Below, in pieces: positions 19,333-48,218 of a stretch of DNA of 64,000 nt; position 1 is the first letter of the stretch; the number at the start of each line of letters is the position of its first letter. The stretch spans positions 186,001 to 250,000 of the forward strand of contig NZ_ATWN01000001.1 of assembly GCF_000421265.1 (NCBI RefSeq), read 5' to 3'. The notes under the pieces are model-generated. The model searched no databases and had not been told where the DNA came from. It saw only the letters and a list, made by a program, of their open reading frames with translations. The position numbers and the translations under genes were made by a program. This DNA comes from Thalassospira lucentensis MCCC 1A00383 = DSM 14000. GTDB lineage: Bacteria; Pseudomonadota; Alphaproteobacteria; Rhodospirillales; Thalassospiraceae.

Positions 19333-19378
19333 AAAACAACAAAGGCACCTGTTATCGCAGGTGCCTTTGTTGTTTTTT
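19333..19378. terminator. Strong bidirectional terminator
   Basis: A perfect 19-bp stem (AAAACAACAAAGGCACCTG with its complement) around loop TTATCG, with A-runs and T-runs on the outer sides. It serves both the PQQ dehydrogenase gene and the convergent Sel1-repeat gene. Confidence 0.93.
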
Positions 19379-41670: not shown

Positions 41671-43464
41671 ATGGTAGAACCCACAATTGATGCTGCGTCC
41701 TCACGCAGGGCATCTATGCTAAGTCTTTGTATGCTGGCACTTGTGGTCGGCGTGGTCACAGGTTATGGCGCGGTTGTTTTCCGTGCGCTTGTCGCGCTTA
41801 TTCATAACGTCGCCTTTTACGGCGTCTTTTCCATTAATTATGATGCAAATCTGCTGACAGCGCCCAGCACCTGGGGCCCTTTGGTCATTCTGGTGCCGGT
41901 CATCGGTGGTTTGTTCGTTGTTTTTCTTGTTAATACATTCGCGCCAGAAGCCAAAGGCCATGGGGTGCCCGAGGTGATGAACGCCATTTATTTCGAACAG
42001 GGCCGTATTCGCCCGATGGTGGCGTTGGTCAAGTCGGTTGCATCTTCGCTTTCCATCGGGACCGGGGCATCGGTCGGGCGTGAAGGCCCGATCATTCAGA
42101 TCGGCTCTTCGCTGGGATCCAGCATTGCGCAAATGTTCAACTTGCAAACCGGGCAACGCATCACATTGCTTGCCGCCGGGGCTGGGGCCGGAATTGCGGC
42201 AACATTTAATACGCCACTTGGTGCGGTGCTATTTGCCATCGAACTGATGATGCCAGAAGTTTCAACGCGCACATTCCTGCCGGTCGTGATTGCCACCGGG
42301 GCGGCGACCTATATCGGACGCATTTCGTTTGGTTTGGCACCCGCGTTCGAGGTGCCATTGGCCGCCGTGCCACAGGTCTCGGCCGTCGATCTTCAGGCGC
42401 TGATTGTTTATGTTGTTCTTGGTGTGTTGTGTGGGATTGCGGCTTGGGCGTTGATCCGTTCCATGCTGGTGACCAGCACCTTGTTTAAAAAGATGCCGGG
42501 CAACGATTATACCCGCCATGCTGTTGGTATGCTGTCGATCGGCATTCTGATGTATGTTTTGCTGCTGACGGGCGGCAATTACTATGTCGACGGTGTGGGG
42601 TATGGGGTCATTCAGGAAATCCTGCGTGGAACGATGACGTCCTTGCCGTTGCTGGTGATCCTGTTCTTTGCCAAACTTTATGCGACATCTGTCAGCATTG
42701 GTTCTGGGGCATCTGGTGGTGTTTTCTCGCCGTCGTTGTTTGTCGGTGCGACCCTTGGGGCTGCTGTCGGTGTTGTCGGCAACATGATCTTCCCGGATGC
42801 GGGCATTACGCCGGTTGAATTTGCGCTTGTGGGTATGGGCGGCGTTGTCGCGGCGGGTACTGGTGCGGCCATGACCGCGATCATCATGATTTTCGAGATG
42901 ACCCGCGACTATAATATTATTGTGCCACTGGTTGTTGCGGTTGCGATTGCGCTTGGCTTCCGCCGGATGATCATCTCTGAGACGATCTATACATCCAAAC
43001 TTGTGTTGCGTGGTCGTCACATTCCAAAGGAACGTCACAGCAACATGTTTATGGTCCACCCGGTGCGCGAAATCATGACATCCGATCAGATTTATATCGA
43101 TGCATCTTTACGTGTTTCTGAAGTGATCGAGAAGATTGGTCCATCACCTGTGGCAAAACCGCTTGTTGTGATGGAAGGGGGGCGTATTGCAGGTGTTATT
43201 CCTGACGTCACGGCGCTGTACGCGGTTGCAGGCGATCAGGGACACAAGGCACTTAAGGAAGTGATCAAGGAAGACTTCGTTGTCGTGGTTGATGATATGA
43301 ATATGTATGACGTGATCAAGCGCATGGAACGCCGTAAGGCACGCGCTGCTGTCGTCGTCAGGCCGTGCCGCGGGGTGCCACGTCAGGACGATATTCGCGG
43401 CGTGATTACGAAGTCGCATATCGCGGACAGCGTTGTTTCAAGCATGCAGCACTATATCGGCTAA
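41671..43464 (+). CDS. ClC-family chloride channel/antiporter with C-terminal CBS domains
   Basis: A protein of about 597 residues. The ClC core shows GHGVPEVMNAIY and GREGPIIQIGSS, with the gating glutamate near residue 138, and GSGASGGVFSPSLFVGATLG. That gating glutamate is typical of Cl-/H+ exchangers. About 150 C-terminal residues carry two CBS motifs (VREIMTSDQIYIDASLRVSE onward), which may bind adenosine nucleotides. The start is uncertain: a TTG at 41644 or the ATG at 41671, neither with a clear Shine-Dalgarno. It is monocistronic, with a terminator at 43518. Confidence 0.93.
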   Translation: MVEPTIDAASSRRASMLSLCMLALVVGVVTGYGAVVFRALVALIHNVAFYGVFSINYDANLLTAPSTWGPLVILVPVIGGLFVVFLVNTFAPEAKGHGVPEVMNAIYFEQGRIRPMVALVKSVASSLSIGTGASVGREGPIIQIGSSLGSSIAQMFNLQTGQRITLLAAGAGAGIAATFNTPLGAVLFAIELMMPEVSTRTFLPVVIATGAATYIGRISFGLAPAFEVPLAAVPQVSAVDLQALIVYVVLGVLCGIAAWALIRSMLVTSTLFKKMPGNDYTRHAVGMLSIGILMYVLLLTGGNYYVDGVGYGVIQEILRGTMTSLPLLVILFFAKLYATSVSIGSGASGGVFSPSLFVGATLGAAVGVVGNMIFPDAGITPVEFALVGMGGVVAAGTGAAMTAIIMIFEMTRDYNIIVPLVVAVAIALGFRRMIISETIYTSKLVLRGRHIPKERHSNMFMVHPVREIMTSDQIYIDASLRVSEVIEKIGPSPVAKPLVVMEGGRIAGVIPDVTALYAVAGDQGHKALKEVIKEDFVVVVDDMNMYDVIKRMERRKARAAVVVRPCRGVPRQDDIRGVITKSHIADSVVSSMQHYIG

Positions 43465-43517
43465 TCAGTTCATAAAGTGCACGAATTTGTGCGCTGCATG
43501 ATAGACAGTTCTTCGAG

Positions 43518-43557
43518 AAAGGCAGCGAGCATGTCATACATGTTCGCTGCCTTTTGA
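43518..43557 (+). terminator. Terminator after the ClC gene
   Basis: AAAGGCAGCGA (43518-43528) pairs with TCGCTGCCTTT (43544-43554), with an inner CATG/CATG pair, followed by TTTTG. Confidence 0.85.
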
Positions 43558-43631
43558 CTTGAAATCATGAAATTTCCTGCCACCTTGGTGTCAAGGTGTG
43601 TATGTGACGAGCCAAAAAGCCGTATCTGTTC

Positions 43632-43659
43632 TTGACAGTCGGGGCGGGCACGGTATCAA
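43632..43659 (+). promoter_or_regulatory. fabD promoter
   Basis: TTGACA (43632-43637), a 16-base spacer and TATCAA. A CCTCAA/TTGAGG hairpin (43665-43678) lies near the start of the transcript. Confidence 0.55.
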
Positions 43660-43731
43660 GAGGGCCTCAATTTTGAGGGGCCGATATTCGGCGCAGCCTT
43701 CGCATAAGCTGACAAAGGTATATTAAGTATA

Positions 43732-44673
43732 ATGACACGCGCACTCGTTTTCCCCGGTCAGGGGTCGCAAGCGGTAGGTATGGGCAAGGAACTGGCGGAA
43801 GCATTCCCGGTTGCCCGCGAAGTTTTTCAGGAAATTGATGACGCGCTTTCACAGAAATTAAGCGCGCTGATGTTTGAGGGGCCGGAAAATGAACTGACCC
43901 TGACGGAAAATGCACAGCCTGCGCTGATGGCTGTCAGTCTTGCTGTTACCCGCGTTCTGGAAAACGAAGGTGGCTTCACGCTGACCGACAAATGCGATCT
44001 GGTCGCGGGGCATTCGCTTGGTGAGTATTCAGCACTTGCTGCGGCGGGGACTTTTGCGGTTGCCGATACGGCACGTCTTTTGAAAATTCGTGGTCAAGCC
44101 ATGCAGGCCGCAGTTCCAGTTGGTGTCGGTGCAATGGCAGCCCTTTTGGGGCTGGACTTTGCCGATGCGGTTGCTGTGGCTGAGGAAGCTGCACAGGGCG
44201 AAGTTTGCACCGCCGCGAATGACAATGCCAATGGACAAGTCGTCGTATCTGGTCATAAGGCTGCTGTTGAACGCGCGATTGAAATTGCTAAGGAAAAAGG
44301 TGCCAAGCGCGCCGTTCTTCTGCCGGTGTCTGCTCCTTTCCATTGCTCGTTGATGCAGCCAGCGGCTGATCGTATGGCCGAGGCCCTTGCCGAAGTGGCG
44401 ATGAATGCGCCCGGTAAGCCGGTTGTTGCGAATGTTACGGCAGAAAAAACTGACAATCCGGAAACCATTCGTAAACTCCTTGTGGAGCAGGTTTGCGGGA
44501 CCGTGCGCTGGCGCGAGTCTGTTCTTTATATGAAGACACAGGGTATTACCGATCTTGTCGAGATTGGCGCGGGCAAGGTTTTGACGGGAATGGTACGTCG
44601 TATCGACCGCGACCTGACCGGCACTTCGGTAAATGGACCGGCTGATATCGAAGCATTCCTCGGCACTTTGTAA
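43732..44673 (+). CDS. fabD: Malonyl-CoA:ACP transacylase
   Basis: FabD loads malonate onto ACP for fatty-acid synthesis. It begins ALVFPGQGSQAVGMG, has the nucleophile Ser in GHSLGEYSALAAAG (about residue 95) and a catalytic His in SAPFHCSLM. At 313 residues it is full length. First gene of fabD-fabG-acpP-fabF. Confidence 0.96.
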   Translation: MTRALVFPGQGSQAVGMGKELAEAFPVAREVFQEIDDALSQKLSALMFEGPENELTLTENAQPALMAVSLAVTRVLENEGGFTLTDKCDLVAGHSLGEYSALAAAGTFAVADTARLLKIRGQAMQAAVPVGVGAMAALLGLDFADAVAVAEEAAQGEVCTAANDNANGQVVVSGHKAAVERAIEIAKEKGAKRAVLLPVSAPFHCSLMQPAADRMAEALAEVAMNAPGKPVVANVTAEKTDNPETIRKLLVEQVCGTVRWRESVLYMKTQGITDLVEIGAGKVLTGMVRRIDRDLTGTSVNGPADIEAFLGTL

Positions 44674-44716
44674 AAGTGTCGTGACCACGACGAACCCAAA
44701 AAGGGAAAGAAAGTTT

Positions 44717-45457
44717 ATGTTTGATCTTGCAGGGAAAACCGCACTTGTAACTGGTGCCACGGGTGGCATTGGTGGCGAAATCGCCAAGGTTTTGGCGCAG
44801 GCCGGTGCGAAGGTTGCTCTGTCGGGGACCCGTGCGGAACGTCTCGAAGCGGTTGCCGCCGAGATCGGTGAAAACGCCGTTGTTGTTCCAGCGAACCTTT
44901 CGGATACAGAATCGGTTGACGGTTTGATCAAGGCGGCTGAAGAAGCCCTTGGTGGTCAGCTGGATATTCTGGTCAATAATGCCGGCATTACCCGCGATCA
45001 GCTTGCGATGCGTCTGAAAGACGAAGACTGGCAGGCGGTTCTTGATGTGAACCTGACATCTGCATTCAAGCTTGCACGGAATTCTTTGCGTGGCATGATG
45101 AAGCGCCGTCATGGTCGTGTCATCAACATTACGTCGATTGTTGGCGTCACGGGGAATCCGGGACAGGCAAACTACGCGGCGGCGAAGGCAGGCATGATTG
45201 GCTGGTCAAAATCGATGGCACAGGAAGTTGCTGCGCGCGGTATTACGATTAACTGTGTTGCACCGGGGTTCATCACCACGGCAATGACCGAAGAGCTCGG
45301 TGATGCGCAGAAAGAGAAACTTTTGGCAGGCATTCCTGCCGGTCGCATGGGCGACAGCAAAGAGATCGCAGCAGCGGTTCTGTTTCTTGCCAGTGACGAA
45401 GCTTCATATGTCACAGGACAGACCTTGCATGTGAATGGCGGAATGGCGATGATTTAA
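44717..45457 (+). CDS. fabG: 3-oxoacyl-ACP reductase
   Basis: A 246-residue SDR that reduces beta-ketoacyl-ACP with NADPH. TGATGGIGGEIA is the nucleotide loop, NNAGITRDQLAMRL the family NNAG block, and YAAAK the catalytic pair. The conventional start MFDLAGKTALVTG at 44717 has AAGGGAAAG upstream. It follows fabD by 43 bp. Confidence 0.96.
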   Translation: MFDLAGKTALVTGATGGIGGEIAKVLAQAGAKVALSGTRAERLEAVAAEIGENAVVVPANLSDTESVDGLIKAAEEALGGQLDILVNNAGITRDQLAMRLKDEDWQAVLDVNLTSAFKLARNSLRGMMKRRHGRVINITSIVGVTGNPGQANYAAAKAGMIGWSKSMAQEVAARGITINCVAPGFITTAMTEELGDAQKEKLLAGIPAGRMGDSKEIAAAVLFLASDEASYVTGQTLHVNGGMAMI

Positions 45458-45480
45458 CCCGTTGCGGGTTGCTTGCTTTT
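45456..45480 (+). terminator. Weak terminator at the end of fabG
   Basis: AACCCG-TTG-CGGGTT overlaps the stop codon, and a broken T-run (GCTTGCTTTT) follows. Partial termination before the separate acpP promoter is plausible. Confidence 0.4.
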
Positions 45481-45498
45481 CTGTTTAAAAGAGGCCGC

Positions 45499-45504
45499 TA
45501 TAAA
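45499..45504 (+). promoter_or_regulatory. acpP -10 element
   Basis: TATAAA at 45499-45504 puts a transcript start near 45511, just before the first leader hairpin. No good -35 hexamer is seen. Confidence 0.45.
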
Positions 45505-45511
45505 AAATCTT

Positions 45512-45618
45512 GAAACCGGCAATGGGTATTGTCGGTTTCCGGTCCCAGGAAGTTCCTTCAATAGGGGGAGCAGACCGGGACCACGCAAACGATAACTGAC
45601 AGAAAACCTATTGAAGGA
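45512..45618 (+). ncRNA. Structured acpP leader covering the Shine-Dalgarno (riboregulator candidate)
   Basis: Hairpin 1: GAAACCG with CGGTTTC and an inner CAAT/ATTG (45512-45539). Helix A: GGTCCC (45541-45546) with GGGACC (45577-45582). Helix B: CCTTCAATAGG (45555-45565) with CCTATTGAAGG (45607-45617), 11 perfect pairs that bury the AAGGA Shine-Dalgarno. A and B interlace, forming a pseudoknot or alternatives. No described RNA family is recognised. Confidence 0.5.
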
Positions 45619-45626
45619 TTTGAGCT

Positions 45627-45863
45627 ATGAGTGATGTCGCAGATCGCGTGAAGAAGATCGTTGTCGAACACCTTGGTGTTGAAGAAGACAAGGTCACTGA
45701 AAACGCCAGCTTCATCGACGATCTGGGCGCAGACAGCCTGGACACTGTCGAGCTGGTTATGGCGTTTGAAGAAGAATTTGGTTGTGAAATCCCTGATGAC
45801 GCAGCCGAGAAAATTCTGACCGTCAAAGACGCGATTGACTTCATCGAAAAAGCTAACAGCTAA
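45627..45863 (+). CDS. acpP: Acyl carrier protein
   Basis: A 78-residue acidic four-helix carrier of fatty-acid intermediates. Ser37 in [10 protein letters not shown] receives the phosphopantetheine arm. AAGGA lies eight bases upstream of the ATG but is inside a predicted 11-bp helix. The gene has its own -10 and leader between fabG and fabF, in line with ACP being needed in large and regulated amounts. Confidence 0.97.
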
Positions 45864-45950
45864 TTTTGCTGTGAGACATGGGCGCCAGAGGGCATCCTCA
45901 GGCGCCCTTTTCGTCTTTGCTGGATTCATAAAATAAAGGCGTAGTGCGGG

Positions 45951-47210
45951 ATGAGACGCGTAGTTGTTACCGGTATTGGTGCTGTTACACCGCTTGCAAG
46001 CGGCGCACAGAACACGTGGCAGAAACTGCTGGCTGGCCAATCTGGAATCAAGAACATCGATACTTTCGATGTGTCCGATATCCCTGCAAAGATCGCGGGA
46101 CTTGTGCCACGTGGTCAGGGTGACGGACTTTTCAACGCGGAAGATCATGTCTCAGTTAAAGACATGAAGAAAATGGACGATTTTATCGTCTATGGGATTG
46201 CTGCGGCCGATCAGGCTCTTGCCGATTCCGGTTGGAAACCCGAAACCGACGAAGATCAGGAAAATACTGGTGTTCTGATTGGTTCAGGTATCGGGGGTCT
46301 TCCAAAGATCTCTGAAGCCACCGAGTTGGTTAATAACGGCAAAACCCGCCGCGTCAGCCCATTCTTCATTCCGTCTTGCCTGATCAATCTGGTCTCTGGC
46401 CAGGTATCGATCAAACACGGTCTTAAAGGCCCGAACCACGCTGTTGTTACAGCATGTTCGACCGGTGCACACGCCATTGGCGACGCATCGCGCATGATCA
46501 TGCTTGGTGATGCCGATGTGATGGTTGCTGGCGGTGCAGAAGCTGCAGTTTGCCGTCTTGGCATGGCTGGCTTTGCTGCTGCCCGTGCACTTTCAACCGG
46601 TTACAACGATACCCCGACCGAAGCGTCGCGTCCGTGGGACGAAGGACGCGACGGTTTCGTCATGGGCGAAGGTGCTGGTTGTGTGGTGCTTGAAGAATAC
46701 GAGCACGCCAAGGCACGTGGTGCACGAATTTACGCCGAAGTCGGCGGTTACGGCATGTCGGGCGACGCCTATCACATCACGGCTCCGGCTGCGGATGGGA
46801 ATGGTGGTTTCCGCTCGATGCGCAATGCGTTGCGCAATGCCGGTGTGAACCCGGAAGACGTCGACTATGTGAATGCTCATGGTACGTCGACTCCGTTGGG
46901 TGATGAAATTGAACTGGGTGCGGTCAAGCGTCTGTTTGGTGATCACTCATCGAAACTTTCGATGTCATCGACGAAATCGGCAACCGGTCACCTGCTGGGT
47001 GCGGCTGGCGCGATTGAAGCTGTGTTCTCGATCCTTGCGATCTACGAAGGTGTGGTTGCACCGACCCTGAACCTGCAAAATCCGTCTGAAGCCTGCAAAG
47101 GTATGGATCTGGTTCCGCTTGAGGCCAAGCAGCGTAAGGTAAACGTCGCATTGTCGAACTCGTTCGGCTTTGGCGGTACCAACGCATCGCTGGTGTTCAA
47201 GGGCGTCTAA
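45951..47210 (+). CDS. fabF: Beta-ketoacyl-ACP synthase II
   Basis: FabF condenses malonyl-ACP with acyl-ACP to elongate fatty acids. The 419-residue thiolase-fold protein has nucleophile Cys in ACSTGAHAIG (about residue 168), the His in NAHGTSTPLGD and the Lys/His in KSATGHLLGAAG. It follows acpP by 87 bp. Confidence 0.97.
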   Translation: MRRVVVTGIGAVTPLASGAQNTWQKLLAGQSGIKNIDTFDVSDIPAKIAGLVPRGQGDGLFNAEDHVSVKDMKKMDDFIVYGIAAADQALADSGWKPETDEDQENTGVLIGSGIGGLPKISEATELVNNGKTRRVSPFFIPSCLINLVSGQVSIKHGLKGPNHAVVTACSTGAHAIGDASRMIMLGDADVMVAGGAEAAVCRLGMAGFAAARALSTGYNDTPTEASRPWDEGRDGFVMGEGAGCVVLEEYEHAKARGARIYAEVGGYGMSGDAYHITAPAADGNGGFRSMRNALRNAGVNPEDVDYVNAHGTSTPLGDEIELGAVKRLFGDHSSKLSMSSTKSATGHLLGAAGAIEAVFSILAIYEGVVAPTLNLQNPSEACKGMDLVPLEAKQRKVNVALSNSFGFGGTNASLVFKGV

Positions 47211-47243
47211 AACAGCAGATCCAACCTTACCGGGAGCTATCCC

Positions 47244-48218
47244 TTGAAGCGTTTTCTGCTTGTTCTTGGCTTTTTATGCATCACCGCCGCTCTCACCATT
47301 GGTGGGGCGGCGGTGTATGTTTATGTGCAATACACGTCACCAAGCAAACTTGTGCAGGGCAGCGACATCATCATCCCGCAAGGGACGGGGGTGCGCGGTA
47401 TTGCCGAAATTTTCCAACGTGAACAGATTGTCGAAGAACCTTTGATCTTTTTGGCCGGGGTGCGTGTCGCCGGGCTGGATCGTTCTTTGCGTGCGGGCGA
47501 ATATCATTTTCCCGCCCGGGTCAGTCCCCGTCAGGCCGCGGAGATTCTGGCAAGTGGTGAGACCGTTCGACGGTTCGTTACCATCCCCGAAGGGTTGAGA
47601 TCAGGAGAAATCATTGACCGGATCAATCTGGTCGATGGTCTGACCGGTGATATCGCCGATATCCCCAAGGACGGGACCCTGTTGCCCGAAACCTACCAGT
47701 TCTCATACGGTGATACGAAGCAAAGCATCATTGATCGGATGCGAGCTGCGCATGATGCGCTGGTCGATGAACTATGGCCGGGCCGGGATTCGGAGCTTCC
47801 ATTCGATACCATTAACGAAGCGATTGTTCTGGCGTCGATTGTGGAACGCGAAACAGGAGTGGCGGCCGAACGTGGACGCGTGGCGGGGGTTTTTGTCAAC
47901 CGCCTAAACCGCAACATGCGGCTTCAATCTGATCCGACGGTGGCCTATGCGGTTAGTCCGAAAAAACGTCTTGATCGCGCTTTGACCCGTAACGATCTTC
48001 GTTTTGAAAGCCCGTATAATACTTATGTCACCGCCGGGTTGCCGCCATCGCCGATTACCAACCCGGGCCGTGATGCGATTTATGCGGTTTTACATCCGTC
48101 GGAAACAGAAGATATTTATTTCGTGGCGGATGGCACAGGCGGTCATGCCTTTGCCCGCACCCTTGACGAGCATAATCGCAATGTTGCCAAATGGCGGCGC
48201 CTGCGTGACAGCCAGTAA
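47244..48218 (+). CDS. mltG: Endolytic murein transglycosylase MltG
   Basis: A YceG-family enzyme that cuts nascent glycan strands and so sets their length. One N-terminal membrane helix (FLLVLGFLCITAALTIGGAA) precedes a periplasmic LysM-like segment and the catalytic domain. The catalytic Glu lies in ASIVERETGV (about residue 201). 324 residues. The TTG start is supported by GGGAG nine bases upstream. The order fabF-mltG is common in proteobacteria. Confidence 0.95.
   Translation: MKRFLLVLGFLCITAALTIGGAAVYVYVQYTSPSKLVQGSDIIIPQGTGVRGIAEIFQREQIVEEPLIFLAGVRVAGLDRSLRAGEYHFPARVSPRQAAEILASGETVRRFVTIPEGLRSGEIIDRINLVDGLTGDIADIPKDGTLLPETYQFSYGDTKQSIIDRMRAAHDALVDELWPGRDSELPFDTINEAIVLASIVERETGVAAERGRVAGVFVNRLNRNMRLQSDPTVAYAVSPKKRLDRALTRNDLRFESPYNTYVTAGLPPSPITNPGRDAIYAVLHPSETEDIYFVADGTGGHAFARTLDEHNRNVAKWRRLRDSQ

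Follow-up and report, generated by a model that had tools for sequence, protein, structure and literature searches.

A conserved leader upstream of acpP in Thalassospira and its two predicted, mutually exclusive pairings

Introduction

RNA thermometers such as ROSE and fourU place a helix over the Shine-Dalgarno sequence (SD) of one gene, and a helix so placed can also be drawn in the leader of acpP in Thalassospira. The acpP helix differs from those of ROSE and fourU in being long-range, with 41 nt between its arms, and in competing with a local hairpin; no thermometer family in Rfam matched the leader, and acpP is not, to our knowledge, a heat-shock gene. A second likeness is with the translational riboswitch platforms and other SD-sequestering leaders (cf. 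PMC10907184), in which an upstream strand can pair either locally or with the SD, so that open and closed states result. The acpP leader shares this choice of partners, but it matches no known riboswitch family and, among the acpP leaders examined, is found in one genus only. The autogenously regulated ribosomal-protein genes (cf. PMC7247131) likewise have structured 5' leaders that act on translation, as is proposed for acpP; unlike them, acpP encodes no ribosomal protein.

The leader described here lies in a 64,000-nucleotide stretch of the genome of Thalassospira lucentensis (contig NZ_ATWN01000001.1, positions 186,001 to 250,000), referred to below as the window, whose first letter is position 1. 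All features of the leader are on the + strand.

Results

Layout of the acpP leader

The open reading frame at 45627-45863 (+ strand, from the ORF list) encodes a 78 aa acyl carrier protein, which we take to be acpP from its sequence and the gene order fabD-fabG-acpP-fabF. At the presumed 5' end of its mRNA is an inverted repeat, hairpin H1 (arms 45512-45523 and 45528-45539), with 12 pairs in the window sequence, one of them G.U. The P2-P3 hairpin follows at 45541-45582, recognized as the best local fold and by both-sided changes in P2; P2 joins GGTCCC (45541-45546) to GGGACC (45577-45582) in 6 bp, and P3 pairs 45554-45559 with 45564-45569 around a loop at 45560-45563. A block conserved across the genus, ACTGACAGAAAA (45595-45606), stands ahead of the 3' arm (45607-45618) of a long-range helix, and this arm contains the acpP SD, AAGGA (45614-45618). 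The 5' arm of the helix (45554-45565) coincides with the loop and one strand of P3, and many bases thus serve two exclusive folds.

A sequence-only reading of the window had drawn attention to this locus through a perfect 11-bp complementarity between CCTTCAATAGG (45555-45565) and CCTATTGAAGG (45607-45617). The match is confirmed and is longer by one pair, T45554-A45618, such that TCCTTCAATAGG (45554-45565) and CCTATTGAAGGA (45607-45618) form 12 perfect bp that cover the entire AAGGA. The same reading had described a 6-bp helix (45541-45546 with 45577-45582) crossing the longer one and a separate hairpin beginning where transcription should start; both are present, as P2 and H1, and its view that the two helices are either alternatives or parts of a pseudoknot is supported. 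Shuffled versions of 45499-45660 have a higher folding energy than the real sequence (z -3.3; 2/200 as low).

Perfect inverted repeats of at least 11 bp arose in only 20, and of at least 12 bp in 4, of 20,000 dinucleotide-preserving shuffles of 45512-45626, which bears out the earlier judgement that a chance origin of the 11-bp match is improbable. The 64-kb window contains 14 overlapping words that resolve into seven distinct perfect inverted repeats of at least 11 bp with arms 10-60 nt apart, the acpP one counted; the length of the repeat alone is thus notable, not unique, and it is the position over the SD and the conservation that count. A further perfect 11-bp inverted repeat is at 43518-43554, between fabD and the gene upstream. 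Elsewhere in the window, a perfect inverted repeat at 19333-19376, with 19-nt arms, a 6-nt loop and a run of T at its end, looks like a strong intrinsic terminator.

Distribution within the genus

The leader is present in 28 of the 29 genomes of the genus. The sole genome without it (G008, 92% complete) has no acpP match whatever and is therefore uninformative. Both arms are exact in 22 of the 28 (L001-L022), which represent 15 distinct leaders; in genome G020 (leader L023) 8 nt of the complement are left, and five genomes of one clade (L024-L028) have lost the 5' arm. None of the 28 leader-bearing genomes has a change in the 3' arm, and where the 5' arm is lost or cut the SD arm must be kept for other reasons. 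ACTGACARARAACCTATTGAAGGA occurs exactly once per genome in 28 of the 29. Each of the 22 genomes having both arms has them paired within 60 nt at acpP only, and no second copy was detected in the window's own genome, where a covariance model gave a single match (150 of 2749 candidates scored). The first 30 coding bases of acpP (45627-45656) show no change in 28 genomes of the genus, synonymous sites included.

Conservation and covariation

No change is seen in the 16-nt block 45554-45569 on the tree of the 22 genomes (flank tree length 1.40), as against 1.44 changes per site, with 20.5% of sites unchanged, at 39 neighbouring sites (45540-45553 and 45570-45594). If sites were independent, 16 unchanged sites would occur by chance with a probability of about 1e-10, the neighbour set having been picked after the alignment was seen. 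Strong purifying selection on the 5' arm in 22 of the 28 genomes is, at the level of sequence comparison, a supported conclusion. The frozen block includes four bases that are paired by P3 only (45566-45569) as well as a loop (45560-45563) that is paired by the long-range helix only, and double use accordingly fits it better than either pairing alone. A sequence-specific binder would be the other way to account for it.

The long-range helix shows no covariation; all 12 pairs are invariant in the 15 distinct leaders, which from the standpoint of covariation is evidence neither for nor against it, and outside the 22-genome clade the helix breaks on one side only. The three local helices H1, P2 and P3 are paired in 96.0% of cells in the 15 distinct leaders. 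Cells with both-sided changes number 5 compared with 1.3 in shuffles, and their covariation score reaches 0.127 compared with 0.106; for both measures 0/500 shuffles were as high. Relatedness of the leaders can inflate such scores. Of the five pair-count measures, two do not exceed shuffles: the number of H1, P2 and P3 pairs with both-sided change, two, was reached in 98/500 shuffles, and their nine further pair types are not above shuffles. The both-sided changes are located in P2. P3 does not vary within the 22-genome clade; in L024-L028 another helix takes its place.

Absent covariation and arms unconserved in relatives had been named beforehand as outcomes that would count against the SD-hiding interpretation, and each was seen in part. 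Covariation is absent from the 12-bp helix; both arms are exact in 22 of the 28 leader-bearing genomes, while in one genome 8 nt of the 5' arm remain and in five it is gone.

Each of the 21 distinct leaders has P2-P3 as its lowest-energy local fold, with z values of -1.5 to -4.5 relative to mononucleotide shuffles. The segment folded ran from H1 to the ACTGAC block and excluded the 3' arm by design, and this result therefore identifies the local fold, not the winner of a competition. In L023 a mismatch divides P2 into 3+3 bp, and in L024-L028 P2 has 4-6 bp; H1 folded alone gives a hairpin of 9-12 bp in each of the 21. A covariance model of H1-P2-P3 built from the 15 leaders (R1) detects the other six with rough E-values of 1.4e-11 to 2.2e-3; the match in L026-L028 covers just 56 nt, namely H1 and part of P2-P3. 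R1 also matched these hairpins seven times when they were read on the opposite strand, and in L026 the opposite strand outscores the sense strand, so that the model is no proof of which strand folds.

Promoter-side region

A promoter-like region of acpP at 45459-45504 (+ strand) ends in TATAAA (45499-45504). Its putative promoter role is suggested by conservation, 40 of its 46 sites being without change across the 22-genome clade. From this conserved TATA-like box we infer that the acpP transcript starts at about 45510-45512. No sigma-70 consensus was found in 45200-46000, where 0.5 would be expected; despite its absence, hardly any change is seen across the 22-genome clade in CTTTTCTGTTTAAAAG and GGCCGCTATA (45477-45504), which lie upstream of acpP. 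A small hairpin, AACCCG TTG CGGGTT (45456-45470), lies directly 3' of the fabG stop codon, is followed by T-rich DNA and is identical across the 21 distinct leaders; it may act as a weak terminator separating the two genes.

Predicted energies of the open and closed states

Energies were predicted for RNA running from the presumed transcript start to +30, with an open state defined by P2-P3 and a closed state by the long-range helix. In 12 of the 15 distinct clade leaders the long-range helix has a mean predicted probability of 0.64-1.00; the value is 0.26 for L009 and 0.00 for L001 and L003, which are of the window's own type. The energy models behind the open/closed comparison are rough; by them, 13 of the 15 favour the closed state at 37 C, with closed minus open ensemble energies of -2.7 to -6.8 kcal/mol, and the window-type leaders (L001-L003, three genomes, two distinct sequences) favour the open state by 6.7 kcal/mol. 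For the direct passage from open to closed, barriers of 16.5-33.1 kcal/mol are predicted, high enough that the two states may not interconvert. These energies suggest that in most species of the clade the closed state would win at equilibrium and the open state could win during RNA synthesis, and that in the species of the window the open state would prevail at both stages. Lowering the temperature from 37 C to 20 C is predicted to strengthen the closed state relative to the open one in 9 of the 15 leaders, to weaken it by 0.1 to 0.4 kcal/mol in about four, and to favour the open state further in the two leaders of the window type. A fold in which the SD block pairs with H1 has the lowest energy only in the window type (L001 and L003; three genomes); L009 shows part of this pairing among its partners. 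It is not treated as conserved.

Comparison beyond the genus and with known families

Of 150 genomes from the order, 146 have relatives of acpP. The set used for comparison outside the genus comprised the closest acpP relatives, 96 loci with 94 distinct leaders; its part from the order was drawn from the best 30 loci, of which 14 belong to the genus. A complement of at least 9 nt to the last 25 nt before the start codon, where the SD lies, was present in 0 of these 94 leaders, and three reach p 0.05 in shuffles where 4.7 are expected. R1 gave no match at acpP in the 96 loci; its three matches (E 0.27-2.9) are far from the leader. The absence of the complement from all 94 leaders and the silence of R1 at acpP argue against a general alphaproteobacterial feature.

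A cmscan search of 43000-48000 against Rfam, taken up to E 10, gave five matches below the gathering score, of which none is in the leader and none belongs to a riboswitch family, in agreement with the earlier reading, which knew of no described RNA family of this kind. A leader-peptide attenuator was also considered and rejected; the starts and ends of short ORFs differ among the 21 distinct leaders, and an SD-like word precedes one only (L026). Among titles and the openings of abstracts, in a coverage that leaves out preprints and most subscription papers, no acpP leader switch is described. Neither acpP nor acyl carrier occurs in the main texts of PMC11109978, PMC2864571 and PMC6413936.

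Discussion

The sequence comparisons show two conserved, mutually exclusive pairings and selection on a 16-nt block that takes part in both. A helix of 12 perfect pairs can lie over AAGGA in 22 of the 28 genomes, and a competing structure that would free the SD, P2-P3, is found in all 21 distinct leaders. We propose, as a tentative reading whose chance of being right falls a little short of even, that this is a cis-acting two-state translational leader of acpP, in which the SD would be open when P2-P3 forms and closed when the long-range helix forms. The earlier interpretation, that a helix hiding the SD controls translation of acpP, is partly supported in this way: the leader is structured and conserved and its 5' arm is selected in 22 of 28 genomes, whereas the helix itself lacks covariation. 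Its further suggestion, that control is exerted by a factor, a small molecule or a ribosomal protein, did not gain from the analysis, and no result favours a particular one.

Loss of the 5' arm in five genomes and its reduction to 8 nt in one, with the 3' arm intact, counts against a two-state leader; the SD arm needs no partner. The lack of covariation in the long-range helix, the predicted preference of the window type for the open state, the high predicted barriers and the two pair-count measures not above shuffles weigh on the same side. In another reading P2-P3, together with H1, would itself be the functional element, a stabilizing or protein-binding structure in the 5' UTR of a strongly expressed mRNA, with the SD match a by-product or a weak secondary effect. 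The hairpin persists even in leaders without the 5' arm, both-sided change is seen in P2, and for the window's own species the predictions favour the open state. What this explanation leaves unaccounted for is that the 16-nt block is frozen in 22 genomes, including the loop and two U.G pairs, and that it contains an exact 12-nt match to the SD block (4/20,000 shuffles); a sequence-specific protein would explain the freezing, not the match. We regard it as the main rival, possible if on balance doubtful, and the two-state leader as the best supported. Chance complementarity, with the 5' block conserved for an unrelated reason, would agree with the seven perfect inverted repeats of at least 11 bp in 64 kb and with the lack of covariation, but the rarity of such a match at the acpP position in shuffles and the joint invariance of the arms in 22 genomes make it very improbable.

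The crossing of the helices also raises the prospect that P2 and the 12-bp helix form a single H-type pseudoknot, perhaps stabilized by a ligand or protein, and the loops of 7, 11 and 24 nt (as counted in the window) look long enough by estimate. P3 would have to open, however, and the rough energy of the pseudoknot is above that of the best nested state in all 15 distinct leaders, lying 1.3 to 11.3 kcal/mol above the open state when a penalty of 7-10 kcal/mol is assumed and no ligand is included; we consider this structure unlikely. At the DNA level, the repeat could be an operator with two half-sites bound by a repressor; its arms are inverted copies without a mismatch, and the distance of about 52 bp between them is close to five turns of the helix. 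Away from acpP, on the other hand, the 11-nt arm occurs 18 times in 29 genomes and its reversed control 42 times, so that no regulon is visible; the spacing varies from 51 to 53, and the 5' copy is lost in five of 28 genomes with the other copy unchanged. An operator is, on these grounds, scarcely to be expected.

Under the two-state reading, P2-P3 could form first during RNA synthesis, leaving the SD free and acpP translated. The P3 strand could instead pair with the SD block, either nested or as a pseudoknot on P2, and keep the ribosome off, and this closed state would lower translation of acpP. Some condition of the cell would shift the balance between the two; the candidates are ribosome occupancy, transcription speed, temperature and a bound factor, and a first guess is plain competition of ribosomes with refolding. 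The service of many bases of the 16-nt block in two pairings would permit little drift, and this would account for a block that neither changes nor covaries.

Membrane synthesis depends centrally on acyl carrier protein, the amount of which has to keep pace with growth. The leader may be a small on/off switch for this key protein of fatty-acid synthesis. A more specific version, which we offer as speculation and consider rather unlikely, is a dual-coded RNA switch in which the 16-nt block, through its parts in the local hairpin and in the SD-closing helix, would set the synthesis of acyl carrier protein according to a signal of the cell such as ribosome supply, temperature or a factor related to acyl chains. 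We know of no example of a cis-RNA control point of this kind on fatty-acid synthesis. A leader gating translation of acpP would, at the level of RNA, couple lipid synthesis to translation or to some other signal, and the case illustrates how strong selection on a dual-coded switch could leave no covariation.
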